A stretch of 64,000 nt of DNA from Ottowia sp. oral taxon 894 (GTDB lineage Bacteria > Pseudomonadota > Gammaproteobacteria > Burkholderiales > Burkholderiaceae_C), in the NCBI RefSeq assembly GCF_001262075.1, contig NZ_CP012073.1, positions 186,001 through 250,000 on the forward strand, in the 5' to 3' direction. Of this stretch, positions 3,659 to 45,522 are shown piece by piece. How positions within the stretch are numbered: position 1 is the stretch's first letter; the number at the start of each line of letters is the position of its first letter. A program made the translations under genes and the position numbers. The notes under the pieces were generated by a model, which was not told the origin of the DNA, ran no database searches, and saw only the letters and a program-made list of their open reading frames with translations.

Positions 3659-6388
3659 ATGAACCATCCGCAAGCCGCCACTATCCGCCGCGCCGACTAC
3701 GCCCCGCCCGCGTTCTGGATCGACAGCGTGAACCTCACTTTTGACCTGGATCCGGCCAAGACCCGCGTGCTCAACCGCATGACGCTGCGCCGCAACATGG
3801 CCGTGCCCGCGCAGCCGCTGCGGCTGGATGGCGATGAACTCAGCCTCTCGCGCGTGCTGCTGGGCGGGCAGGGCTGCTCTTTTCGCATGGACGGCCAGAC
3901 GCTGGTGCTGGAAAACCTGCCCGAAGGGCCGGAGCCGTTCGAGCTGGAAATCTTCACCACCTGCTGCCCTGAAAAAAACACGCGCCTCATGGGCCTGTAC
4001 ATGAGCGGCGGCGACTTTTTCACGCAGTGCGAGGCCGAGGGCTTTCGCCGCATCACCTACTTTCTGGACCGGCCCGACGTGATGGCCACCTACACCGTCA
4101 CCCTGCGCGCCGACAAGGCGCGCTGGCCCGTGCTGCTGTCCAACGGCAACCTGGTTGAAAGCGGCGATCTGGACGATGGCCGCCATTTCGCCATCTGGCA
4201 CGATCCGCACAAAAAGCCCAGCTACCTGTTCGCCGTGGTGGCTGGCCGCCTGGTGGCCCGCGAGCAGCGCATCACCACCCGCGCGGGCAAGGAGCACTTG
4301 CTGCAAGTCTTTGTGCGCCCGGGCGATCTGGACCAGACCGGCCACGCCATGCGCTCGCTCATGGCCGCCGTGGCCTGGGACGAAGCGCGCTTTGGCCTGC
4401 CGCTGGATCTGGAGCGCTTCATGGTGGTGGCCACCAGCGACTTCAACATGGGCGCCATGGAAAACAAGGGCCTGAACATCTTCAACACCCGGTTCGTGCT
4501 CGCCAAGCCCGCCACCGCCACCGATGCCGACTTTGCAGGCGTGGAAAGCGTGATCGGCCACGAATACTTTCATAACTGGACGGGCAACCGCGTGACCTGC
4601 CGCGACTGGTTCCAGCTCTCGCTCAAAGAGGGCCTTACCGTTTTTCGCGACCAGGAATTCAGCCAGGACATGGCCGGCAGCGAATCGGCCCGCGCCGTCA
4701 AGCGCATTGAAGACGTCATCGTCCTTCGCGCCCACCAGTTCCCTGAAGACGCCGGCCCCCTGGCCCACCCCGTGCGGCCCGACGAATACCAGGAAATCAA
4801 CAACTTCTACACCACCACCATCTACGAAAAAGGCGCCGAAGTGGTGCGCATGTACCAAACCCTGCTGGGCCGCGAAGGCTTCAGGCGCGGCATGGACCTG
4901 TACTTTCAGCGCCACGACGGCCAGGCCGTCACCTGCGACGACTTCGCCCAGGCCATGAGCGACGCCAACCCGCAAAGCCCCCTGCCCGCCCTGCTGCCGC
5001 AGTTCAAGCGCTGGTACAGCCAGGCCGGCACGCCCGTGGTCACAGCCGAAAGCCGCTACGACGAAGCCGCGCAGACCTGGACGCTCACCCTCGCCCAGCA
5101 CACCCCGCCCACCCCCGGCCAGGCTGTCAAAGAGCCGCTCGTCATTCCCGTGCGCATTGGCCTTGTCGGCCCGGACGGGCAAGACGCGCCCCTGCAAACG
5201 CAAGAAGGCCAGCAAGGCGAAAGCGCCCCCGCTGCCGCCCCCGCCGCCACCTTTACCGCCCTGCTCACCGAAGAAAAAGCCAGCTTCACCTTCACCAACG
5301 TGCCTGCGGGCTGCGCCCCCTCGCTCCTGCGCGGCTTCTCAGCCCCCGTGCGGCTGCAATACGCCGAAACCCCCGCGCAACTGCTGCACCGCCTGGCCCA
5401 CGACAGCGACCCCTTCAACCGCTGGGAAGCCGGCCAGACCCTGCTGCTGCAAGCCGCCACCCGCCACGCCAGCGCATCCGCGAACCCCGGCGAACCCGCG
5501 CTGAACGGCGCCCAGATGGAAGCCCTGCGCGCCGTGCTTCGCCACCCGCAGCTGGACGCCGCCTTCAAGGCCCTGGCCCTCACCCTGCCCGCCGAAAGCG
5601 ACATTGCCGAACACATGGCCAGCCAGGGCCAGCCTGTTGATCCGCAACGCATCCACGCCACGCGCCAGGCCATGCTCGCCCAAATCGCCAGCGCCCTGCA
5701 AGCCGACTGGCAATGGGCCTGGCAAGCGCACCAGGGCAGCGGCGCTTACCAGCCCGACGCCGCCAGCAGCGGCCGCCGCGCCCTCGCCGGCCTGGCCCTG
5801 CTCATGCTCTGCCTGAACGCCCAGGCCACCGGCGACGCCGTCTGGCCCGGCAAGGCCTACCAGCGCGCCAAAGACGCCGGCAACATGACCGAACGCCTGG
5901 CCGCCCTCACCGCCCTCATCCACACCCATCACCCGCTGGCCGGAAAAGCCCTGGCCCGCTACCACGCCCTCTTTGCCGAAGACGCCCTGGCCCTTGACAA
6001 ATGGTTCGCCCTGCAAGCGCGCACGCCCGACGCAGACGGCCATGTGCTGCCGCTCGTGCGCCAGCTCATGCAGCGCCCCGACTTCACGCTCAAAAACCCC
6101 AACCGCGCCCGCGCCCTCATCTTCACCTACTGCCTGAACAACCCCGCCGCCTTTCACCGCGCCGACGGCGCAGGCCACGCCTTCTGGGCTGAACAAGTGC
6201 TGGCGCTCGACGCCCTCAACCCGCAAGTGGCCGCCCGCCTGGCCCGCGCCCTCGACCGCTGGGCCACCCTGGCCGAGCCATACCGCAGCAGCGCCCGCGC
6301 CGCCTTGCAAACCGTCGCCGCCCGCGACACCCTCAGCCGCGACGTGCGCGAAGTCGTCACCCGCGCCCTGGGCAGCCAGGGTGAATAA
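3659..6388 (+). CDS. pepN: Aminopeptidase N (M1 family zinc metallopeptidase)
   Basis: This 909-residue cytosolic enzyme removes N-terminal residues from peptides in the last stages of protein breakdown. It has the exopeptidase motif GAMEN (265-269) and the zinc site HEYFH (301-305) with the third ligand Glu324 in LSLKEG. The C-terminal half is the helical domain of proteobacterial PepN. The ATG at 3659 (MNHPQAATIRRADY) was chosen over one 21 codons upstream because it matches the usual PepN start. An alanine/proline-rich insert near residues 515-535 looks like a linker. A strong terminator follows. Confidence 0.95.
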   Translation: MNHPQAATIRRADYAPPAFWIDSVNLTFDLDPAKTRVLNRMTLRRNMAVPAQPLRLDGDELSLSRVLLGGQGCSFRMDGQTLVLENLPEGPEPFELEIFTTCCPEKNTRLMGLYMSGGDFFTQCEAEGFRRITYFLDRPDVMATYTVTLRADKARWPVLLSNGNLVESGDLDDGRHFAIWHDPHKKPSYLFAVVAGRLVAREQRITTRAGKEHLLQVFVRPGDLDQTGHAMRSLMAAVAWDEARFGLPLDLERFMVVATSDFNMGAMENKGLNIFNTRFVLAKPATATDADFAGVESVIGHEYFHNWTGNRVTCRDWFQLSLKEGLTVFRDQEFSQDMAGSESARAVKRIEDVIVLRAHQFPEDAGPLAHPVRPDEYQEINNFYTTTIYEKGAEVVRMYQTLLGREGFRRGMDLYFQRHDGQAVTCDDFAQAMSDANPQSPLPALLPQFKRWYSQAGTPVVTAESRYDEAAQTWTLTLAQHTPPTPGQAVKEPLVIPVRIGLVGPDGQDAPLQTQEGQQGESAPAAAPAATFTALLTEEKASFTFTNVPAGCAPSLLRGFSAPVRLQYAETPAQLLHRLAHDSDPFNRWEAGQTLLLQAATRHASASANPGEPALNGAQMEALRAVLRHPQLDAAFKALALTLPAESDIAEHMASQGQPVDPQRIHATRQAMLAQIASALQADWQWAWQAHQGSGAYQPDAASSGRRALAGLALLMLCLNAQATGDAVWPGKAYQRAKDAGNMTERLAALTALIHTHHPLAGKALARYHALFAEDALALDKWFALQARTPDADGHVLPLVRQLMQRPDFTLKNPNRARALIFTYCLNNPAAFHRADGAGHAFWAEQVLALDALNPQVAARLARALDRWATLAEPYRSSARAALQTVAARDTLSRDVREVVTRALGSQGE

Positions 6389-6412
6389 CCCAACGCACGC
6401 CGCATGCCAACA

Positions 6413-6446
6413 AAGAAGCGGGGCTTGCAGGCCCCGCTTCTTCTTT
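6413..6446 (+). terminator. Rho-independent terminator after pepN
   Basis: A perfect 12-bp stem, AAGAAGCGGGGC against GCCCCGCTTCTT, surrounds a 6-nt loop and is followed by a short T-rich tail. It lies about 25 bp after the pepN stop. It also marks the left edge of the AT-richer island. Confidence 0.85.
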
Positions 6447-6501
6447 GAACAGCTTCTCAGGCTACGCGCGCTACGCAGCGCCTGACATGCCGGATTGCAT
6501 C

Positions 6502-6583
6502 TAAAAGAGGAGCAAATTCAGCCAGGGCTTAAAGGCATCTGCCGCTTCAGCGGCGCGGACAGCGCGCTATGAACAAAGGAGCG
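6502..6583 (-). repeat. R-family intergenic repeat, diverged copy R0
   Basis: Both ends fit the family in minus orientation: AGAGGAGCAAATTCA on one side and GCTATGAACAAAGGAGC on the other. The CTAGTGG core is replaced by unrelated GC-rich sequence that forms its own hairpin (GCCGCTTCAGCGGC). Confidence 0.6.
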
Positions 6584-6679
6584 GAAAACAGCGTTTCCCC
6601 CCCCTTTCCTCCCTTTCATCGGCGTGCTTTGCGACACGCTCCACCCTTCTACCCCTCACGGCCTAAGCGATCCATTTGT

Positions 6680-6954
6680 TCAAGCTGGTTGATTTTGGGT
6701 CAATAAAGACACATAAAAACAAATAAATGCAAGCACTAAAAATATCAATGAGAAACGGTCCAGGATCATTATTTTTCTCGCCACCCCGGAAAATTCATCA
6801 TCCAGATCGCCATTCTTTATGCTTTTCAAGACCTTTTTAAGATGATATCCATCTGTTTTTCCATGATTTTTTTGTAAAAACGTTTTGCCACCACCTCCTC
6901 AACCCAGAAAATTATAAAATGAAGCAACATAAATAATCCACATGCTACCGCCAT
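6680..6954 (-). pseudogene. Small two-helix membrane protein, frameshifted in a poly-A tract
   Basis: Reading the minus strand from ATG 6954 gives MAVACGLFMLLHFIIFWVEE and on to VAKRFY, with one membrane segment. An A7 run (T7 at 6867-6873 on the plus strand) then throws the frame into an early stop. Adding one A restores KKNHGKTDGYHLKKVLKSIK and a second membrane segment (LIFLVLAFICFYVSLL), ending at TGA; total about 91 residues. Both parts look protein-like, so this is either a recent single-base deletion or a read error. I do not recognise the family. Confidence 0.5.
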
Positions 6955-7016
6955 AAATTTCCCATATCTTTAATCATTGAAATCGAGCGCCGGCAACCCA
7001 TTTGCGAGAGTTTTTC

Positions 7017-7223
7017 CTAATATAAAACGAGACCTTCCTCCAATGTATCCCACTCCTTTTTGAATCCGGCTTCCAAATGTCCGTTATAGCTCCAGCACCT
7101 TTTGAATCTGCCGCTTTCTTTTTTTCTTGTCATTGAAGGAGTGAGATACAGAAAAGAAGTCAGAAAATCCACATCAAGATTGGCGCCTTGAAATCCAATC
7201 TCCGCTGTATATTTATGAGCCAT
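7017..7223 (-). CDS. DUF4279-like protein, short and possibly truncated
   Basis: About 68 residues starting MAHKYTAEIGFQGANLDVDF, with a tryptophan-containing segment (FKRCWSYNGHLEAGF) and a C-terminal KEWDTLEEGL. The pattern recalls DUF4279 proteins, which are longer, and the expected last third is missing after an early stop. A TTG start ten codons upstream is possible. It sits in the AT-rich group of minus-strand small genes between a frameshifted membrane gene and an ankyrin-like remnant. The family assignment is tentative. Confidence 0.4.
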   Translation of the reverse strand: MAHKYTAEIGFQGANLDVDFLTSFLYLTPSMTRKKESGRFKRCWSYNGHLEAGFKKEWDTLEEGLVLY

Positions 7224-7249
7224 AAAATCAACGGCGTGGCGCTTCAGAG

Positions 7250-7408
7250 TCAAGACCGTACGCCATAAGATCCCAAAAGTTCAATGATTTCACGGGACAT
7301 CATTCTTTTGGCCACCTGCATCAAGGTCTCGGGCGGAGAGTCCGGCGTTTTTGCTTTCATACCGGCGCCCAGCTCAATAAGAACCTTCAAGTGGCCAATC
7401 TGATTCAT
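7250..7408 (-). pseudogene. Ankyrin-repeat remnant
   Basis: A 52-codon frame beginning MNQIGHLKVLIELGAGMKAK. The frame is open upstream and reads FAFRYWAVV directly before it. The phase W-A-V...N-Q-I-G-H-L-K-V-L-I-E-L-G-A-G matches one ankyrin repeat, so this is probably the last repeat of a longer protein whose 5' part is gone or out of frame. It overlaps the end of the upstream membrane-protein gene by a different frame only in its untranslated extension. Confidence 0.4.
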
Positions 7409-7448
7409 GACAACCGCCCAATATCTAAAAGCAAAACTTTCGTATATT

Positions 7449-7724
7449 TCATGTTTTCTTGAACATCCACAGACGCCAAATTACAAATACGATCAGGCAT
7501 GTCCAGATCAGACTGTTGAGCATGATCAATACAATTACATTGTCAATGAATAGATATCCATCGATATAGGCAATTGGAATAGACAAATATTCAAGAACAC
7601 TTCTCCATAAGATCGTTTTTTCATCCGCATATAGCGCAGATGATTTCATGAATGCGACAATAGTCAAATTGAAATGCAGCATGAATGAAATCAGCCCTAT
7701 TGCCGCAAGACAGATGTTTTTCAT
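7449..7724 (-). CDS. Small membrane protein, hypothetical
   Basis: The 91-residue product has a hydrophobic N-terminus (MKNICLAAIGLISFMLHFNL) and a C-terminal pair of membrane-spanning stretches around FIDNVIVLIMLNSLIWTCLI, ending in basic residues. The ATG was chosen because AAAGGAAA lies 6-7 bp upstream; a longer frame starts at 7832 without such a site. No family recognised. Low GC and neighbouring broken genes suggest acquired DNA. Confidence 0.55.
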   Translation of the reverse strand: MKNICLAAIGLISFMLHFNLTIVAFMKSSALYADEKTILWRSVLEYLSIPIAYIDGYLFIDNVIVLIMLNSLIWTCLIVFVIWRLWMFKKT

Positions 7725-7832
7725 TTTGAGTTTCCTTTTGGTAAAGGGGATAGGCCGACTAAAAACCTGATGTTCAAGGTTTTCAATCGGCTCTTGTTTA
7801 AGAGCCATTATATGGCAGCCATGGTAAAGCAT

Positions 7833-9480
7833 TCAGACAAATTTTCTTTGTTTCAGCAACGTCGGCACGGTGGCCGCCAAATTTGGCACGCCAATTCCTG
7901 CCGAAATATTTTCTATCAGCAAATCGTCTTTGTCCAATCTGTATTTGCCGGTTTTGTCTTCGATGAAACTGCCGTTCGCATCCAGCCATACCGGTGAAAA
8001 TAAAAAAGACCAATTCATACCGCAGCACGCCAGGAGATAGAAGTGTCTTTGTCAATGTCGTACGGGTTGCTTCCGTCATGAAAGCCGCCTTCCGCCCTGG
8101 TTGCGCCTTGCAGGTAAGCCACGGCATGGCCGTATTCGTGCGCCATCACGTCTCAGTCAAAAGACTTGAGAGAACCCAGGTGCATTTCAGACACTTTTTT
8201 CCCTCCATCGCTGCCAGCCCCGTGAAAAGCCTCTCTTGGCGTGGGACGGTTGGTGACGACTTTCTTGAAAACGGGCGCTTCGGGAATACCTGCGATGGGT
8301 TTGACATGCTCCGTCAGTTCATACAGGGCCTGGAAAACGGACCAGGAGTTGGCTTCGGCTTCGCTGATGTGGTATTTGTTATCTTTATGTGCATCATCAG
8401 GTTTGATGTTTATTTCTTCTTTTTGATCAAACAGCGATATCAAGGGGGGGTAAAATTATCGGCATCTTTAAAAATACCAATATTAAATCTATCGTGCTTG
8501 CCAAGAAGCTGCACCTGGTATTTCAGATCATCAACGGGAGATATGAATTTAAGCTCCCCTTTTTCATCCAACCGGCCATAAGCAATCAGCTCAGCCAGTC
8601 CTGGAGGCACCTTTCCAGTGTGTGTAACGCGAATCACGGCGCCATGCAATGGCAAAAACTTGGAGAACCCATGATCTATGGCAAATTTAACCCTGATTAT
8701 TACAGCATCCCCTTTGGATATTTTCTTGTCAGAATCTTCTGACTTTTCTGGGTGTGGCTTGGACTCCTGCTGGATGGATCTATAGATACGACCTTCTTCC
8801 TCCAGAACGATCTCCGTAGCCCGCTTCGATTCTTCCTTGCTCAGCCACCTTTCAGAAAAAAGCAGTTCTTCTTCCCCTGGATGGCTTTTTTTCCATTGAT
8901 CGCGCTTTTTATTGAATTTAGAGACCAATGACTGATATTCATCGTGGTTCCTGAGATTGAATCTGGCCATTGAATTCAGCAGGTCTGTCCCAACCCAGCT
9001 GTAATAAACCTTTCCGTTATACAGCAAGATGCTGAATTGTATTCCGCCATTGAATTCATTGGATTCAAAATCAGCTAAAATGTCGTACCAGCCAGCTTTC
9101 AAAAATTTTGGCCTGAATTTAGCCTCTGCCGTCGGCCCCGGGCTATCCAGCGGCAACTCCGATGGCACCTCAATGCCCGTCAAATCCCGGTGATTGGCTC
9201 CAACCACCTTGAATTTGATCTTGCCATGCAGGCCCTTTTCCAGCCGGATGAATGAGAACTTCATCTCGAATTCATCCACCGGTATGCCCGGCTGTGGATT
9301 GGGAACATCCACCACGATTTCCGACCCAGGCTCCACATAAATTGGCGTCGCCATCGCCGCCTGCCAGCCCAGCGCCAGCATGGCCAGCAAGGCCCACCGG
9401 AGCCAGCACCCCAGCAGCGCATGAAAGCCGCAAAACGGCAGCTTGCGCCGCCCGTCGATTGACAAATGTTCCAGTTGCAT
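7833..9480 (-). pseudogene. Secreted HEYGH metallopeptidase-like gene, broken by at least three lesions
   Basis: A good RBS (AAAGGAG) precedes ATG 9480, and the protein begins with a signal peptide (LLAMLALGWQAAMATP). About 345 residues read cleanly to a C7 tract (G7 at 8444-8450 on plus) where the frame fails; one more C would join FTPP to LISLFDQKEEINIKPDD. That frame then meets TGA at 8153-8155 between KSFD and DVMAHEYGHAVAYLQG; TGG (Trp) is the obvious ancestor. A further frame change near 8016 leads into MNWSFLFSPVWLDANGSF and a stop at 7833. HEYGH is a gluzincin-type zinc motif. I do not recognise the family of the N-terminal domain. Confidence 0.65.
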
Positions 9481-11241: not shown

Positions 11242-12086
11242 GCGCGAAAAGGCGGCAGAAAGCGCATGCCTGAAGAATGCCCTTGCGCTTGCCGGCCATG
11301 AAAATGAATGCCGCTTCTTCCGGAAAAAACTTTTCCCATTCAGGCCATCGCCAAAAACGCACGCGCCCATTTCTTCATGACGCATCAGCCAAACCGGCAG
11401 ACCGTGCATGATTCATGCAAATGATGATTGGCTGGCGCTGCGCAAGAAGCCAGTCATTGCACGAGCGGCCGGTTTTCAGACTGGCCGATCATTTTCAGCG
11501 CCGTGAATCGACGCCGGCACAAGCAATTCAAAAGGGGTAAACCATAGCAGCAAAATCGCCTGACTCCAATGTTTCGGAGCAAAAAAGAAAACCGGCAAAA
11601 AAAATAGAACAAGGCCATCTGAAAATATCCGAATCAAATGCCAGCCAGTTCTCTCCATTCGGCCCGCAAATCAACTTCAGGCAAAAGCCATATCGGAATG
11701 GCGGCCCATCATTTCAGCTGGCGCAGTTTGGCAGCAGTTCCGGGCATCAGAAAACATCGTGCGGCAGATGAATTCGAGGCAAGCCCATTGCCATGCGCAT
11801 AGCCGCCCGGAGCTTTTCGCCTGCCCGTGAAATGAAATCACGCCCCTGAAGCGCCAGCATGAAAATGCCGCCCTTCAGCGCGGCGGCTTTTATCCGCCCG
11901 CCCAATTTTCCAGCGTTGCGAACGCAGTGGCGAAGGGCCGCAGCATTCAGTCTGAAATCTGAAAATCGGGCCTTTCGTCAAAAGCCGTTTTTTGCCGTTT
12001 CCGATCTGGTTGCAAGCGTGAAAAAGCCGCGCAGGAGCGAACGCGGACTGTGCAGGATGCTGCTTTGCTGCACGCAGCGTTTTTTT
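11242..12086. other. Long intergenic region after ispF, one weak small-gene candidate
   Basis: About 845 bp with mixed base composition. The only candidate is a 60-codon minus-strand frame at 11476-11658 beginning MERTGWHLIRIFSDGLVLFF, with a hydrophobic stretch that could span the membrane; no clear RBS and no family recognised. It lies in the AT-richest part of the region. Nothing else is supported before repeat R3. Confidence 0.35.
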
Positions 12087-25972: not shown

Positions 25973-26795
25973 GTTCGAGTGGCGAAGCGGGCGATTATCG
26001 GAAGGCTTGGCGCCGGAAAGCCTCGCGCCCCTGTCCGCGCCGTTTCCGCGCCGTTTTCCGCGCCGTTTTCCACGCCGGTCTGCCCCCTTCAAAAACCCGC
26101 TTTGCTTTGCCGTCTGGCTCCAGGGCTGGCGTCAATCAAGGGTGCAAGAGCCTTTTTTATAAACGCTGCTCTTTTTGAATCATCGACAGCGCCACCAAAG
26201 GTGTCCGCATGCATCAATATGGGGTTTATTTCGCATGGGCGCCGGCTGTTTTCCGGCGTTTTGTGAAAGCAGTGAAATTCAATTGGTTAATGACGTGCAG
26301 CCAGGCGGGTAAAACCATTGTCAGGCGAAAGACTGTGCCGGATGCGCAGAGGCAACGAGGCCAGCTCATCAATCAAAGCCGCCAGCGTCATGCGCGCGAC
26401 AAAACTTTCTGAAATTCGCGGCAGCCATTGCTTCAATCTTTCATGCCGCATCTGATTTGTCATTGCTGCCGGGGCCGCCATTCAGCCAGCGGGCCAGCGC
26501 GGCTTGCGCCCAGAGCAGCGTGGCGCGCCAGGCAGCGGTATGTCGAAAAGGGCGGGTTGCAGAAGCTGTTTACCCAGGATGGGGAAAGCTTATTTTGCTT
26601 CTGTATCGATAGCATGAGGTCCTAGTGGAACGGGCGCAGAAGCCTTTTTTGGCCTTCTGGATTTGCTCTATTTTTTTGGGGCTATTCCACTCTTCTTGCG
26701 CTGCTGGCCCTGGCGTCTGTGCCTGCCCATCCGGGTGCGGCCAGACTGTCCATCCACGCATCAATGCAGGCCGGTATGATGCCCGCCGCCTTGTC
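25973..26795. other. Intergenic region between hemC and the DUF2069 gene, containing repeat R7
   Basis: About 820 bp between divergent genes. Apart from R7 it holds short open frames on both strands (26209 on plus, 26481 on minus) that lack ribosome binding sites and known families. Base composition drops around 26150-26300. Confidence 0.4.
26596..26679 (+). repeat. R-family intergenic repeat, copy R7
   Basis: Left end GCTTCTGTATCGATAGC, core ATGAGGTCCTAGTGGAAC, then GGGCGCAGAAGCC and its hairpin partner GGCCTTCTG, and a decayed right end (TTTGCTCTATTTTTTTG). Confidence 0.88.
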
Positions 26796-27248
26796 ATGAC
26801 CGCTGTTTCCGCTCCTTTGCCAGCTTGCGCGCCCTGCCCCGCCCGGCCTTCGCCTGCCGCGCGCGCCACGCGCGCTGCCGCCGTGGCCTGCGTGCTGGCG
26901 CTGGCGCTGCTGGCGCTGGCCTGGGAGCTGTGGCTGGCCCCGCTGCGGCCAGGCGGCTCGTGGGTGGCGCTGAAGGCGCTGCCCGTGCTGCTGCCGCTGG
27001 GCGGGCTGTGGCGCTACCGGCTCTATACCTACCGCTGGGTGAGCCTGTTTTTGTGGCTGTATTTCACCGAAGGCGTGGTGCGCGCCACGACAGAAGGCGC
27101 GCCTGCGCGCTGGCTGGCGCTGGGCGAGGTGCTGCTGTGCCTGGGGCTGTTTGCCGCGTGCGTGCTGCACATCCGGGCGCGGCTGAAGGCGGGCCGGCTG
27201 GCTGCGCAGGCCATGCAGACCGCCAGGCAGGAAGCGGCGGGCGCTTGA
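26796..27248 (+). CDS. DUF2069 membrane protein
   Basis: The 150-residue protein has four predicted membrane helices and the DUF2069 core GGLWRYRLYTYRWVSLFLWL followed by YFTEGVVRATTE. These small inner-membrane proteins are widespread in beta- and gamma-proteobacteria and have no established function. ATG 26796 begins the cytosolic N-terminus; the open frame continues upstream into repeat R7 but is not protein-like there. It ends 46 bp before the FAD-linked dehydrogenase. Confidence 0.8.
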   Translation: MTAVSAPLPACAPCPARPSPAARATRAAAVACVLALALLALAWELWLAPLRPGGSWVALKALPVLLPLGGLWRYRLYTYRWVSLFLWLYFTEGVVRATTEGAPARWLALGEVLLCLGLFAACVLHIRARLKAGRLAAQAMQTARQEAAGA

Positions 27249-27294
27249 AAATCAGCCTTTCCTTTTTTCTCCCACTGCAAATAGCCAGATATTC

Positions 27295-28707
27295 ATGTCC
27301 CATCCTGTTCTCGATACTTTTCGCAGCGCCATTGGCGCCGAACACGTGCTCACTGAAGGCGATCTTTCGGCCTGGGAGCAGGACTGGCGCCAGCGCATGC
27401 GCGGCAAGGCGCTGGCCGTGCTGCGCCCCGGCAGCACGGCGGAGGCGGCCGCTTGCGTGCGCGCGTGCGCCGCGCATGGCGTGGCCATCGTGCCGCAGGG
27501 GGGCAACACGGGGCTGGTGGTCGGCTCCGTGCCCGATGCCAGCGGCCGCCAGGTCGTGCTTTCCACCACGCGCCTGAATGCCGTGCGCGGCATTGACGCG
27601 GCCAATCTCACCATGACCGCCGAAGCCGGCTGCGTGCTGCAAAACGTGCAGCAAGCCGCGCGTGACGCAGGCCTGCTCTTTCCCCTGAGCCTGGCGGCCG
27701 AAGGCAGCTGCACCATCGGCGGCAATCTGGCCGCCAACGCGGGCGGCACGCAAGTGCTGCGCTACGGCAACGCGCGCGAGCTGTGCCTGGGGCTGGAAGT
27801 GGTCACGCCGCAAGGCGACATCTGGAACGGCCTGACAGGCCTGCGCAAGGACAACACGGGCTATGACTTGCGCAACCTCTACATCGGCAGCGAAGGCACG
27901 CTGGGGCTGATCACGGCCGCCACGCTCAAGCTCTATCCGCTGCCTGCCGCGCGGCTGACGGCCTGGGCCGCCGTGCCATCGATTGCCGCCGCCGTTGATT
28001 TGCTGGGGCTGGCGCAAAAGTTTCTCGGCTCCAGCCTGACCGGCTTTGAGGCCATGTGCCAATTTGCGCTCCAGCTGGTGGACCGGCACTACCCGCAGCT
28101 GCGCGTGCCCTTGTGGCAGGGCAGCCCCTGGTGCGTGCTGCTGGAAAACTCCGACGACGAGAGCGAGGCCCACGCCCGCGCGCGCTTTGAGGCCCTGCTG
28201 GAAGCCGCGCTGGAAGCGGGCTGCGTGAGCGACGCCGTGGTGGCCGAAAGCCTGGCGCAAGCCAAGAACCTGTGGCACATCCGCGAAAGCGTGCCGCTGG
28301 CGCAAGCCGCCGAGGGGCTGAACATCAAGCACGACATCAGCATTCCCATCTCGCGCATTCCCGAATTCGTGCAAGCCACCGACGCGCTGCTCACCCAGGC
28401 CATACCGGGCGTGCGCCTGGTCGATTTCGGCCACTTGGGCGATGGCAACCTGCACTACAACGTGCAGGCGCCCGAAGGCGCGGATGCCGCCGAATTCCTG
28501 CGCACGCAAGAAGAGCGCATCAACGACATCGTCTATGGCAGCGTGAAGGCGCACGGCGGCTCCATCAGCGCCGAGCACGGCGTGGGCAGCCTCAAGGCGC
28601 ACACGCTGCCGCATTACAAGCCCGCCGTGGCGCTGGATTTGATGCGCGCCATCAAGGGCGCGCTGGACCCGCAAAACATCATGAACCCGGGCCGCGTGCT
28701 GGCTTGA
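27295..28707 (+). CDS. FAD-linked 2-hydroxyacid dehydrogenase (GlcD / D-2-hydroxyglutarate dehydrogenase type)
   Basis: The 470-residue protein has an N-terminal PCMH FAD-binding domain (VPQGGNTGLVVGSVPD, AAEGSCTIGGNLAANAGG, IGSEGTLGLITA) and the C-terminal oxidase domain (FGHLGDGNLHYNVQ, SISAEHGVGSLKAH). Members oxidise D-lactate, glycolate or D-2-hydroxyglutarate and pass electrons to ETF or quinone; an ETF-QO is encoded in this window. No glcE/glcF follows, which argues for a D-2-hydroxyglutarate- or D-lactate-type enzyme. The substrate is not certain. Confidence 0.88.
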   Translation: MSHPVLDTFRSAIGAEHVLTEGDLSAWEQDWRQRMRGKALAVLRPGSTAEAAACVRACAAHGVAIVPQGGNTGLVVGSVPDASGRQVVLSTTRLNAVRGIDAANLTMTAEAGCVLQNVQQAARDAGLLFPLSLAAEGSCTIGGNLAANAGGTQVLRYGNARELCLGLEVVTPQGDIWNGLTGLRKDNTGYDLRNLYIGSEGTLGLITAATLKLYPLPAARLTAWAAVPSIAAAVDLLGLAQKFLGSSLTGFEAMCQFALQLVDRHYPQLRVPLWQGSPWCVLLENSDDESEAHARARFEALLEAALEAGCVSDAVVAESLAQAKNLWHIRESVPLAQAAEGLNIKHDISIPISRIPEFVQATDALLTQAIPGVRLVDFGHLGDGNLHYNVQAPEGADAAEFLRTQEERINDIVYGSVKAHGGSISAEHGVGSLKAHTLPHYKPAVALDLMRAIKGALDPQNIMNPGRVLA

Positions 28708-28883
28708 AAGGGCTGCTGCGGACGGCTGGCGCGGCGCTGCCCGTCCGCCGCCCCCTCCCTTCCGGCAGGGCGCGCGATGCGCCACTGCTTATGAATTCAT
28801 AGGTGGCATCCACAAGAAAAACATTCATGCGGCTGGCAACAATCGCCCCCATTCATTCACACACGAGCGAGGAGAAGAGAGCC

Positions 28884-41710: not shown

Positions 41711-41796
41711 TCATCAAAAAAAGGAGCGAATTCAAGGGGTGTGAAAAGGCTGTTCGCGCAGTTTCCACTAGGACATCACGCTATTGATCAAGGAGC
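41711..41796 (-). repeat. R-family intergenic repeat, copy R10
   Basis: In minus orientation: CATCAAAAAAAGGAGCGAA, then the core CAGTTTCCACTAGGACATCA and the end GCTATTGATCAAGGAGC. It lies between btuF and cobU and is the first canonical minus-oriented copy. Confidence 0.92.
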
Positions 41797-41854: not shown

Positions 41855-42493
41855 TCATGCCTTGAGGTGCAGGGGCAGCCCGGCGGCCATGAAGGTCACG
41901 CGCTCGCAGCAGGCGGCGGCCTGCTGGTTGAGCCAGCCCAGGGCGTCGGCAAACGCGCGCGTCTCGCGCCCCAGGGGGATGACGCCCAGCCCGATTTCAT
42001 TGCTCACCAGCACCAGCGGGCCGGGGCAGGCCCGCGCGGCGTCCAGCAGCCAGGCAGCCTGCGCCTGCCAGGCCGGGGCGGCGGGCGCGGCCAGAAAGGC
42101 GTCAGGCGGCTGCCGCAAGGCGGGCATGCCCGGCGGCGGCAGCATGATTTGCGTGAGCCAGAGCGTGAGGCAGTCCACCACGCGCAGGGTTCGCTCGCCG
42201 CCTGCGCCAGCAATGGCTGCGGGCAGATCGCGCCAGGCTTCTTGCGTGCGCATGCCCGGCGCCCGCCCGGCGCGCTCGCGCTGGTGGCGGGCGATGCGCT
42301 CGCGCATTTCCGGCCCGTGCGGCCAGGCGGTGGCCAGCAGCACGGCTTCATGGGCGCAGTCTGCCGCCAGCCAGCGGGCCGCCGCCTCTTCGGCCCAGCG
42401 GGATTTGCCGCTTTTCTGGCCGCCCAGCACCAGATGGGCGCGCGCGAAAACATCTGAAAGGCGAGGCGAAGAAGGCGATGGGGAAGATGACAT
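41855..42493 (-). CDS. cobU: Adenosylcobinamide kinase / adenosylcobinamide-phosphate guanylyltransferase
   Basis: The 212-residue bifunctional enzyme phosphorylates adenosylcobinamide and transfers GMP to it, activating the corrinoid for nucleotide-loop assembly. It has the P-loop HLVLGGQKSGKSRWAEEAA, HGPEMRERIARHQRERAG with the guanylylated histidine region, and CLTLWLTQIM. It works before cobT and with the product of cobD, both in this window. The RBS region upstream borders the acquired segment at 42.5 kb. Confidence 0.92.
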   Translation of the reverse strand: MSSSPSPSSPRLSDVFARAHLVLGGQKSGKSRWAEEAAARWLAADCAHEAVLLATAWPHGPEMRERIARHQRERAGRAPGMRTQEAWRDLPAAIAGAGGERTLRVVDCLTLWLTQIMLPPPGMPALRQPPDAFLAAPAAPAWQAQAAWLLDAARACPGPLVLVSNEIGLGVIPLGRETRAFADALGWLNQQAAACCERVTFMAAGLPLHLKA

Positions 42494-42622
42494 TATGCGT
42501 TCGGGCGGATATACGGCTCAAGATGCGGCTGCGCTCTACACCGCGTTGGGCAGTGCAGGCCGCCACTATTATCTGTTTCCACAACTTTTCCTTGATTCGC
42601 TCTATACGCTCTGCTGAGTTTT

Positions 42623-42910
42623 TTGGGTGCTTTGCTTCCTTTGACCCCGTTTTGCTTTTTCCTTTTGGAAAATGGGGTTGATGCGGGCTTGTTCTTCAAT
42701 GAATTGTTTTATAGCCATATCAGCACCTTTTTTGCGCTTGACGTGATAGTGTCCGTGCTGGTTTTTATTGCCTTCGTGGTTTCAGAATCCTTAAAGGCAG
42801 GAAAAGCATGGATGATGTGGTCTGTTTTGTGCTTGTTAATCGGCATCTCTTTCGCGCTCCCGCTGTTTTTACTTTTTCGTGAGATAGCGGCCAATGAAAA
42901 AATTGAGTGA
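42623..42910 (+). CDS. DUF2834 membrane protein, N-terminus uncertain
   Basis: The 95-residue reading from a TTG start has FFLLENGVDAGLFFNELFYS, then two membrane helices (DVIVSVLVFIAFVVSESLKA and SVLCLLIGISFALPLFLLF), ending REIAANEKIE: the DUF2834 pattern. Family-like sequence continues upstream to 42596 (ALYALLSF) but without ATG or GTG before a stop, so either TTG is used or the 5' end has decayed. Base composition is well below that of cobU. It lies in the segment with Neisseriaceae-type uptake sequences. Function unknown. Confidence 0.55.
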   Translation: MGALLPLTPFCFFLLENGVDAGLFFNELFYSHISTFFALDVIVSVLVFIAFVVSESLKAGKAWMMWSVLCLLIGISFALPLFLLFREIAANEKIE

Positions 42911-43053
42911 GTTGTGGCCGAAGTATTTTTTCAGCCGTGCAGGTCGGGCATTTATAGCCATCCACCGAAAGCTTCATACAGCGTTGCGCCGCTTCGCCGT
43001 ACAGAACTTTGTGAGTATCGCTACAAGACCCAAGCTGCAAGGCTCTAAACCAA

Positions 43054-43065
43054 AGGCAGCCTGAA
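43054..43065 (+). repeat. DNA uptake sequence, AGGCAGCCTGAA (Kingella-type dialect)
   Basis: A perfect 12-mer of the AG-kingDUS dialect described for Kingella in the Neisseriaceae. With the following bases it forms an AGCCTG/CAGGCT hairpin around AAAAA. It lies 37 bp before the short-chain dehydrogenase start. The dialect assignment is from memory of the published DUS families. Confidence 0.75.
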
Positions 43066-43101
43066 AAACAGGCTCTTCCACCACGCTTAACGGAGAACCA
43101 C

Positions 43102-43833
43102 ATGAACCTGACCGACAAAAAAATCCTTCTTACCGGCGGCAGCAGCGGCATCGGTGCCGCCCTGGCAAAAGCCCTGCACCGTCGCGGCGCACACGTGCTG
43201 ACCTGCGCCCGCCACCTGCCGGAACCGCTGCCAGGCGGCATTACCTTCCGCCGCTGCGATTTATCCCTGCCCGCCGAACGCGACGCGCTGGCCGCATGGG
43301 TGCGCGAGGAACATCCCGATACCGCCGTTTTAATCAACAACGCCGCCGTGCAGCACACGCTTGATTTTGTCGGCGGCGAACGCGCAGCCCTGCTGCAAAA
43401 CCTCGCACAGGAGCTGGCGGTCAACCTTGAAGCCCCCGTTGCCCTGACCGCCGCGCTGCTGCCTGTGCTGGCTCGCCAGCCGCAGGCCGCCGTGGTCAAC
43501 ATCACCACCGGCCTTGCCCTCGCGCCGAAAAAAAGCGCCCCCGTTTACTGCGCTGCCAAGGCAGGACTGCACAACTTCACCCGCGCCCTGCGCTACCAAA
43601 CGGAAGCCGCCGCGCCACACATCCGCGTACAGGAAATCGTGCCGCCCCTGGTTGACACCCGCATGACCGCCGGACGCGGCAGCGGCAAGCTCAGTCCCGA
43701 AGCGGTCGCTGATGCAGTCGTCCGCGCCATTGAAAGCGGTCGCGCCGAGACCTGCATCGGCAAAATACGCCTGCTCAAATGGCTGCTGCGCCTCGCCCCA
43801 TCCGCCGCCTACCGCATTTTGCGCAACGAATAA
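43102..43833 (+). CDS. Short-chain dehydrogenase/reductase (DltE-like), probably acquired from Neisseriaceae
   Basis: The 243-residue SDR has the cofactor loop LLTGGSSGIGAALAKAL, the NNAAV motif, and the active site N-I-T-T-G...YCAAKAGLHNFTRALRYQ, with Tyr-x-x-x-Lys as YCAAK. The usual catalytic Ser position reads Thr/Gly (NITTGLALAPKKSA). The C-terminus (IRLLKWLLRLAPSAAYRIL) resembles DltE-type SDRs annotated as oxidoreductases in Neisseria. An RBS (GGAG) precedes the ATG. Uptake sequences on both sides point to transfer from a Kingella-like donor. The substrate is unknown. Confidence 0.82.
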   Translation: MNLTDKKILLTGGSSGIGAALAKALHRRGAHVLTCARHLPEPLPGGITFRRCDLSLPAERDALAAWVREEHPDTAVLINNAAVQHTLDFVGGERAALLQNLAQELAVNLEAPVALTAALLPVLARQPQAAVVNITTGLALAPKKSAPVYCAAKAGLHNFTRALRYQTEAAAPHIRVQEIVPPLVDTRMTAGRGSGKLSPEAVADAVVRAIESGRAETCIGKIRLLKWLLRLAPSAAYRILRNE

Positions 43834-43848
43834 CCCCGTTCATTCGCA

Positions 43849-43888
43849 CGGCAGCCTGAAAACGGATTTCCCTCCTTTCAGGCTGCCT
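43849..43888 (+). terminator. Inverted DNA uptake sequences forming a terminator
   Basis: CGGCAGCCTGAA at 43849-43860 (one mismatch to the dialect) faces TTCAGGCTGCCT at 43877-43888, a perfect reverse-complement uptake sequence. The pair makes a 12-bp stem (GGCAGCCTGAAA) with a short loop, followed by TTTAAA. Inverted uptake-sequence pairs as terminators are characteristic of Neisseriaceae genes. Confidence 0.85.
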
Positions 43889-43987
43889 TTAAACCAAACA
43901 AGGGCGCAAAGCATAGTGGCGCAGCCGCCGCCGGGTATGCCCGCCTTGCGGCAGCCGCCTGCCGCGCACAGACCACCCGCTGGCGGG

Positions 43988-45394
43988 CTATGGCCCGGGC
44001 GATGCGCCCCGCGCATGCTGCTCCGCTGCCCAAGCGGCCCTGCCAGCCGCTCGGCCCGGCTCCAGCAAATCCAGCAACTTCAGCGCCCGCCAGTGCCGCC
44101 ACAGCGCGGGCAAGGCGGGCGGGGCGTCTGGCGAGGCATCCAGCGGCGCACCGGCGCCAGCCTGCGGCGGGGCCAGCAACAGGCGCTCCACCAGCGGCGC
44201 CAGCGGCGTGCGCGCCGGATCGGCCAGCAGCACGTAGCGCGGCAGCGGGCAGGCGCCCTGCGCGCTCAGCTGCCCCGTCCAGCCCAGCTCCTGCAAGGTT
44301 TGCAGCACGGGCGGCAATTGCAGCGGATCGGCGCGCAAAGCGGCGGCCAGCTCCATCAGCGTGAGGCCATGCGCGGGCGTGTCGCGGGCGGCGGCCAGCT
44401 GCTGCAAGGCTTCAGCGGCCAACTGGAAAGGCCAGCCTGGCGTCTGGCCGCAGCGCAAGCGCGCGCGGGCCGCGCCTGCCGCCTCCTGCAACAAAGGCAG
44501 GCTGGCCGCAAGCACCGCACCCAAAAGCACGATGAACCACGAAAGATGCATCCACAGCAGCAGCAGCGGCACGGCGGCGAAAGCGCCGTAAATGAGCGAA
44601 TAGCTGGGCGCCTGCGCCAGATACAGCCCCATGCCCCAGCGCAGTGCGGCTAGCCCCAGCGCGGCAAAAGCGCCGCCCGCCAGCGCGTGCCGCCAAAGCA
44701 CGGCCGTATTGGGCACATAGTGGTACAGCAGCGCCAGCCCGCCCATCGGCAGCAGCAGCTGCAAAGCGCGCAGCGCCGCCACGGCGCCCTGCTGGGCATG
44801 CCGGGCCACCCCCGCCTCCTGCGGCAGCCAGGCCAGCCACGCGCCGGATTGCGACATCACATAGCTCGTAATCGCCAGGCTGGCGCCCAGCAGCAGCGGC
44901 CCCAGCGTCAGCGCCGCCCAATACACCAGCAGGCGCTGCCCCAGCGGGCGCGGGCGCGGCACGCGCCAAATGCCCCCCAGCGCGTGGTCAATGGTGAGCA
45001 TCAGCGACAGCGAAGTGAACACCAGCACCGCCAGCCCCGCCGCGCCAAGCTGGCTGGCCTTGCCCGCAAAAGCCGTCAGGTTCTCCAGCACGCTCTGGGC
45101 AATGCCGGCCGGAATCAGGTTGCCCGCCAGCCACTCTTGCAGCGCCAGCCGCAGCCGCTCAAACGAAGGAAAAGCCGTGAAAAGCGACAGCGCCACCACC
45201 GCCAGCGGCACCAGCGCCAGCACCGTGGTGAAAGTCAGCGAGCCGGCCGTCACGCCCAGCCGCTCCTGCGCGCAGCGCCGCATCAGCACGCGCCAGGCCG
45301 CCAGCACAGGCGAAGCCGCCGGATTCATGAAATGCCAGGCCAGCCTGCGCGGCAAGAAAAAAAGCCAGCGGGAAAGAGCAGCGCGTTCCGTCAT
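43988..45394 (-). CDS. YihY/BrkB-family inner membrane protein
   Basis: The 468-residue protein has about six membrane helices and the YihY pattern VTAGSLTFTTVLALVPLAVV, SLSLMLTIDHALGGIW, RRPRPLGQRLLVYW-like region, TSYVMSQSG and LALLYHYVPNTAVLWRHALA. A C-terminal cytosolic extension of about 130 residues may be a winged-helix-like domain (HGLTLMELAAALRADPLQLP). The family was once called RNase BN, but that activity belongs to another gene. Function is unknown. Many Burkholderiales annotate it as UPF0761. Confidence 0.88.
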   Translation of the reverse strand: MTERAALSRWLFFLPRRLAWHFMNPAASPVLAAWRVLMRRCAQERLGVTAGSLTFTTVLALVPLAVVALSLFTAFPSFERLRLALQEWLAGNLIPAGIAQSVLENLTAFAGKASQLGAAGLAVLVFTSLSLMLTIDHALGGIWRVPRPRPLGQRLLVYWAALTLGPLLLGASLAITSYVMSQSGAWLAWLPQEAGVARHAQQGAVAALRALQLLLPMGGLALLYHYVPNTAVLWRHALAGGAFAALGLAALRWGMGLYLAQAPSYSLIYGAFAAVPLLLLWMHLSWFIVLLGAVLAASLPLLQEAAGAARARLRCGQTPGWPFQLAAEALQQLAAARDTPAHGLTLMELAAALRADPLQLPPVLQTLQELGWTGQLSAQGACPLPRYVLLADPARTPLAPLVERLLLAPPQAGAGAPLDASPDAPPALPALWRHWRALKLLDLLEPGRAAGRAAWAAEQHARGASPGP

Positions 45395-45439: not shown

Positions 45440-45522
45440 TCAAGAAGAGGAGCAAATTCAAAGGGCAGAAAAACGCCTATTGCGCAGTTTGCACTAGGAC
45501 TTGCAGCTATCAGTTAAGGAGC
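45440..45522 (-). repeat. R-family intergenic repeat, copy R11
   Basis: CAAGAAGAGGAGCAAATTCA, then GCGCAGTTTGCACTAGGAC and GCTATCAGTTAAGGAGC in minus orientation. The hairpin keeps GGC/GCC arms around a T-rich loop. The surrounding intergenic stretch of about 440 bp has no supported gene. Confidence 0.88.

Follow-up and report, generated by a model that had tools for sequence, protein, structure and literature searches.

A 0.9-kb cassette carrying a single SDR gene was found in the genome of Ottowia sp. oral taxon 894, and we consider it highly probable that it is a recent acquisition from Neisseriaceae, likely from a user of the Kingella-type DNA uptake sequence (kingDUS) outside the set of genomes searched, that arrived either directly or by way of Neisseria elongata. 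The window analyzed here is the whole 64,000-nt stretch of contig NZ_CP012073.1 from position 186,001 to 250,000, and coordinates refer to this window unless they are assigned to another locus. The features of the region are as follows, with dialect names as they appear in the consulted parts of PMC10715097 and PMC7371117:

42596-42910, + strand: DUF2834 open frame, 43% GC, lacking an ATG where its relatives would place the start
42981-43002, + strand: neisserial-type spacer GCGTTGCGCCGCTTCGCCGTAC at the left cassette edge, its last four bases (GTAC) overlapping the cassette
42999-43900, + strand: shared cassette (leader, DUS, one SDR gene, DUS hairpin), matched by blastn to N. elongata ATCC 25295, locus L018, 5898-6799
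43054-43065, + strand: AG-kingDUS AGGCAGCCTGAA, 5' of the SDR gene, with its 11-mer core starting at 43055
43102-43833, + strand: SDR gene, 243 aa, with TGGSSGIG and YCAAK motifs (PF00106)
43849-43860, + strand: kingDUS CGGCAGCCTGAA, first position C, forming the left hairpin arm, with its 11-mer core starting at 43850
43850-43887, + strand: inverted kingDUS pair, a predicted hairpin of -25.7 kcal/mol (z -4.7)
43877-43888, - strand: AG-kingDUS, inverted copy forming the right hairpin arm, with its core starting at 43877

A comparison of the cassette with the genome of N. elongata ATCC 25295 shows 98.6% DNA identity over 902 bp, with 13 mismatches and no gaps; 12 codons differ between the two SDR reading frames, six of them changing the residue. 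The encoded protein is 98% identical to its N. elongata counterpart and 68% identical to one from Cardiobacterium hominis in a protein search of genome contigs, which reaches close relatives and may omit the query's own genome; none of the other matches among the 55 loci returned exceeds 50%, except one 30-residue piece at 60%. Some SDR match is present in all 41 genomes searched, the best in the 40 relatives (24 of them congeners) being 48% identical in amino acids, and the cassette itself is absent from the congeners searched. The 98.6% DNA identity to N. elongata, set against about 48% amino acid identity to the nearest SDRs of the genus, upholds the proposal of an earlier sequence-only reading of this DNA that the SDR gene was transferred from Neisseriaceae. 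A FastTree phylogeny of 30 SDRs, a chosen subset made up of the window protein, 18 of the 55 named loci and 11 genome loci with midpoint rooting, places the proteins of the window, N. elongata and C. hominis in one clade (support 1.0), while the SDRs of two congeners (L074, L075) group with those of seven other Neisseriaceae in a separate clade (support 0.90). This second clade (L097-L103, L074 and L075), common to seven Neisseriaceae and two congeners, perhaps records another inter-family exchange.

Near-identity to a Neisseria could also be produced by contamination of the assembly with Neisseria DNA. However, the assembly is a single contig estimated to be 99.96% complete with 0.15% contamination, and the 902 bp lie within continuous host sequence and differ from the only known copy at 13 positions, making this explanation highly improbable. 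More improbable still is a vertically inherited gene that carries DUS-like words by chance, as near-identity across families, absence from congeners, the SDR tree and the word statistics given below all oppose it.

The SDR scores 113.5 bits against PF00106, for which the curated cut-off is 26.6, and like classical SDR oxidoreductases it possesses both the TGGSSGIG glycine motif and YxxxK; the enzyme is probably an NAD(P)-dependent oxidoreductase. Unlike most of the SDRs aligned, the window protein carries Thr 13 residues before the Tyr, a feature shared with N. elongata, C. hominis and L022, where the other 26 of the 30 aligned SDRs carry Ser; from its spacing, this column may be the position of the catalytic Ser. 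A search of the PDB returned no sequence match at E 1e-20.

The three uptake sequences set the cassette apart from its present host. Cores are found at 43055 and 43850 on the + strand and at 43877 on the - strand, where the sequence-only reading had placed them, and the exact 11-mer GGCAGCCTGAA is confined to these sites within the 64-kb window, as had also been claimed; one-mismatch matches occur at five further places. Three copies in 902 bp compare with an expectation of 0.002-0.005 under Markov models of orders 1-4 trained on the window minus the segment. The whole genome (2.93 Mb) contains 17 exact 11-mers against 5-17 expected, and only three exact copies of the 12-mer AGGCAGCCTGAA, two of which are at the SDR locus. 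As neither count reveals a genome-wide excess, the recipient is not rich in the motif, in agreement with the earlier view of this genome. The number of the 14 remaining 11-mer copies, which were viewed as short flanks, matches the chance expectation, and the 12-mer occurs zero or one time in each of the 10 congeners counted.

The last two copies were predicted by the sequence-only reading to pair as a terminator. The strong hairpin is borne out by the folding energy, and a genome search for inverted pairs with a gap of 3-25 returned 43850-43887 as its sole match. The U run 3' of this hairpin is short and a terminator scan did not list it, so that its role in ending the SDR transcript is a putative one. 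Inverted DUS pairs act as terminators in Neisseriaceae; the pair in the window is similar in that it directly follows a gene and forms a strong hairpin, and differs in being the sole such pair in its genome. The DUS dialects of the family are described in PMC3630211 (in the part consulted).

The edges of the cassette are defined against N. elongata. Similarity begins at 42999, 88 bp past the end of the DUF2834 frame, and ends at 43900, while the N. elongata sequence runs on to another kingDUS 40 bp further that is missing in the window. Conserved gene order had been named by the sequence-only reading as a possible sign of transfer; no gene order is common to the window and N. elongata outside the 902 bp. 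On the left, the cassette begins with GTAC, the end of the neisserial-type spacer, and thus the import may reach to about 42981, past what the ATCC 25295 genome contains. The resemblance of this spacer to neisserial ones, noted earlier, is real, as seven of 45 Neisseria genomes and none of the 13 congeners searched contain GCGTTGCGCCGCTTCGCCGTAC with a single mismatch; the N. elongata genome (G041) also lacks it. Two repeats lie nearby: a 45-nt inverted repeat (93% complementary) pairs 42099-42143, a piece of cobU, with intergenic positions 43921-43965 just right of the cassette, and an 83-nt direct repeat (73%) at 41714-41796 and 45440-45522 occupies the two intergenic regions that flank the cobU-brkB block.

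The sequence-only reading had further proposed that the neighboring DUF2834 gene was transferred together with the SDR gene. This part is not supported, given that DUF2834 was found in none of the 82 Neisseriaceae genomes searched and that the left edge is offset by 88 bp. Among 28 congeners, three have a DUF2834 homolog, at 31-41% identity (with this genome included, 4 of 29 in the genus), and a class sample of 368 other genomes yielded eight more, at 27-41%; the best identity seen is 41%. In plasmids, the window protein matched two records and the protein of congener G021 matched four, none above 53% identity. The gene may be decaying, since its reading frame has no ATG at the start position of related genes and the part homologous to them comes after a stop codon (42593-42622).

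The composition of this region offers some support for a larger import, covering about 42494-43900 and including DUF2834, from an unsampled member of Neisseriaceae. The DUF2834 frame (43% GC) and its adjoining stretches (53% at 42494-42622, 55% at 42911-42998) are lower in GC than cobU (73%) and brkB (71%), and a neisserial-type spacer lies between DUF2834 and the SDR gene. Yet the distribution of DUF2834, found in congeners and in none of the Neisseriaceae, and its best identity of 41% tell against this, and we consider the larger import improbable. Elsewhere in the window, which is mostly 60-70% GC, positions 7001-9000 drop to 42-47% and are overlapped by a 346-aa open reading frame at 8440-9480.

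The cassette may also have replaced a distant SDR resident beside DUF2834, in situ, an event compatible with either account of the donor. In G021, DUF2834 is followed directly by an SDR gene (48% aa identity) on the same strand, and homologs of the cobU and periplasmic-binding-protein genes of the window are no further than about 8 kb away; the next best SDR in the recipient's own genome scores only 69 bits. However, the DUF2834-SDR pair occurs in just 1 of 28 congeners, G014 having both genes on different contigs; the SDRs of G021 and the window fall in different clades; and the orientation relative to cobU differs in G021. DUF2834 was also not found in the flanks of any of 55 SDR loci (L018-L072; E up to 1, four-sequence profile), nor an SDR at any of nine further DUF2834 loci. 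Together these points make replacement a rather doubtful proposition, if a less remote one than the larger import. The same 55 and nine loci give no support to the idea that DUF2834 and an SDR gene are generally paired in an operon. A conserved cobU-brkB neighborhood for defining the empty site was likewise rejected, as brkB of congeners has other neighbors: no homolog of cobU, DUF2834 or the SDR was detected at E 1e-5 near brkB at 26 loci from 25 congeners (L116-L141, flank up to 1.5 kb). In seven of seven congener regions read, brkB (43988-45394 in the window) adjoins a homolog of the window open reading frame at 26625-28785, which here is about 15 kb away; the surroundings of brkB thus differ in this genome.

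The preferred reading, a cassette from a kingDUS-using member of Neisseriaceae, draws on the finding that the dialect of the segment is not that of its known Neisseriaceae carrier. N. elongata is assigned to the AG-DUS dialect (Frye et al. 2013, PMC3630211, in the part consulted), and its 2.4-Mb genome contains 29 copies of AGGCAGCCTGAA. Three of these fall within 0.9 kb at the SDR gene, for which the Poisson probability is 2e-7, bearing in mind that the stretch was picked after the fact. In the 12.7 kb around the N. elongata SDR gene (L018), all four kingDUS cores lie at 5955-6841, with 12 AG/AT-DUS cores to the left of this cluster (the last at 4678) and nine to the right (the first at 7005); one king3-type core occurs further right, at 11933. 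Given the AG-DUS dialect of N. elongata, its 29 copies of the 12-mer and the position of the cassette as a kingDUS island between AG-type DUS, the cassette looks foreign there as well, and thus seems to be foreign in both of its carriers. The gene to the left of the cassette in N. elongata is, judging from its protein, presumably trpD-like, and a 17-bp direct repeat containing kingDUS is present at both cassette ends (L018 5949-5965 and 6835-6851).

The search for a source covered 82 Neisseriaceae genomes, one per species. A high-identity SDR was found in only one of them, that of N. elongata, and seven others possess SDRs at 40-46%. Of the 23 genomes in which AGGCAGCCTGAA was counted, four contain 898 to 3449 copies and a fifth 272; the cassette is absent from these five kingDUS-richest genomes (G105, G122, G097, G086 and G045), three of which gave no SDR match at E 1e-30, the other two having SDRs of another clade at 40-41%. 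As the dialect of the cassette is anomalous in N. elongata and the cassette is absent from the kingDUS-rich genomes counted, we favor an unsampled kingDUS-using member of Neisseriaceae as the likeliest source; N. elongata would then be a sister recipient or a stepping stone. Several points count against a kingDUS donor. None of the kingDUS-rich genomes counted carries the cassette, and the next SDR relative, that of C. hominis (68%), lies outside Neisseriaceae. The SDR gene is also 65.6% GC, which is high for a kingDUS species and suggests that the gene reached that donor from elsewhere. The sequence-only reading had pointed to Kingella-like bacteria. Its assignment of the dialect is supported; kingDUS is reported for Simonsiella muelleri, Alysiella and Kingella oralis (PMC10715097, in the part consulted). 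The top match, however, is N. elongata at 98.6% and not Kingella, and an unsampled kingDUS species is more likely as the donor than a named Kingella.

N. elongata itself, in the lineage of the type strain or another strain, could have been the direct donor after acquiring the cassette from a kingDUS species. It is the sole carrier of a high-identity SDR among the 82 genomes, and its copy is 98.6% identical in DNA. On the other hand, G041 contains no match to the spacer at 42981-43002 and the sequences diverge to the left of 42999, with one genome per species available for comparison. We regard this route as possible, although on the unlikely side.

Carriage by a plasmid or phage was considered and discarded, as positions 42400-44100 returned no DNA match in plasmids (near search) or phages (distant search). 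In viral contigs neither a confirmed SDR relative nor the DUS leader was detected, and the only plasmid record with an SDR match at E 1e-40 was from Streptomyces (46%).

In the history we propose, the segment from 42999, or perhaps from about 42981, to 43900 would be a recent import in which one SDR gene is accompanied by the leader and DUS hairpin that belong to it. This cassette would have originated in a kingDUS-using member of Neisseriaceae and passed to the recipient directly or through N. elongata, which itself carries the cassette as a foreign-looking insert. DNA released by the donor was probably taken up by natural transformation and then integrated into the chromosome through recombination, either illegitimate or guided by edge homology. 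As the recipient shows no DUS enrichment, the uptake sequences would persist there as a passive watermark. The SDR gene may be transcribed and translated, as a GGAGA stretch precedes its ATG, with the DUS pair closing the transcript; a scan of the + strand from 42480 to 44000 detected no sigma-70-like promoter. Oral contact between the partners is plausible, and the habitats of N. elongata and Cardiobacterium fit such a setting.

Haemophilus and Neisseria are known to exchange genes across families in the upper airway, with uptake sequences remaining as tags. The transfer described here is likewise inter-family and tagged, and differs in that kingDUS is not enriched in the genome of the present recipient. 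Islands with an anomalous DUS are also described within Neisseriaceae, as in the 32-kb gonococcal island, an integrative and conjugative element with AG-kingDUS (PMC7371117, in the part consulted). In both cases foreign DNA is betrayed by a non-host dialect, and in both this is AG-kingDUS; unlike that element, the cassette is 0.9 kb, contains one gene and no mobility gene, and has one carrier outside the family. Among the papers surveyed by title and the opening of the abstract, none describes a DUS-tagged gene in Burkholderiales. Gene transfer tagged by uptake sequences is an ordinary class of event; we are highly confident of the present case, which is an unusually clean one and bears an unusual three-party signature. 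A more speculative idea, to which we give little weight, is that single genes bracketed by DUS of the same dialect act as portable cassettes, in which kingDUS would supply short homology and the DUS pair would insulate transcription, allowing a 0.9-kb unit to settle in an AG-DUS Neisseria and a DUS-free member of Burkholderiales without a mobility gene.

DUS dialects are thought to confine gene exchange to kin (PMC3630211 and PMC3868556, in the parts consulted). The present gene bears the tag of a dialect that neither of its two carriers uses, and one of these carriers lies outside Neisseriaceae; the tag therefore serves as a readable return address to an unsampled donor. Comparing the dialect of a segment with that of its host offers a simple test for tracing gene flow between families.
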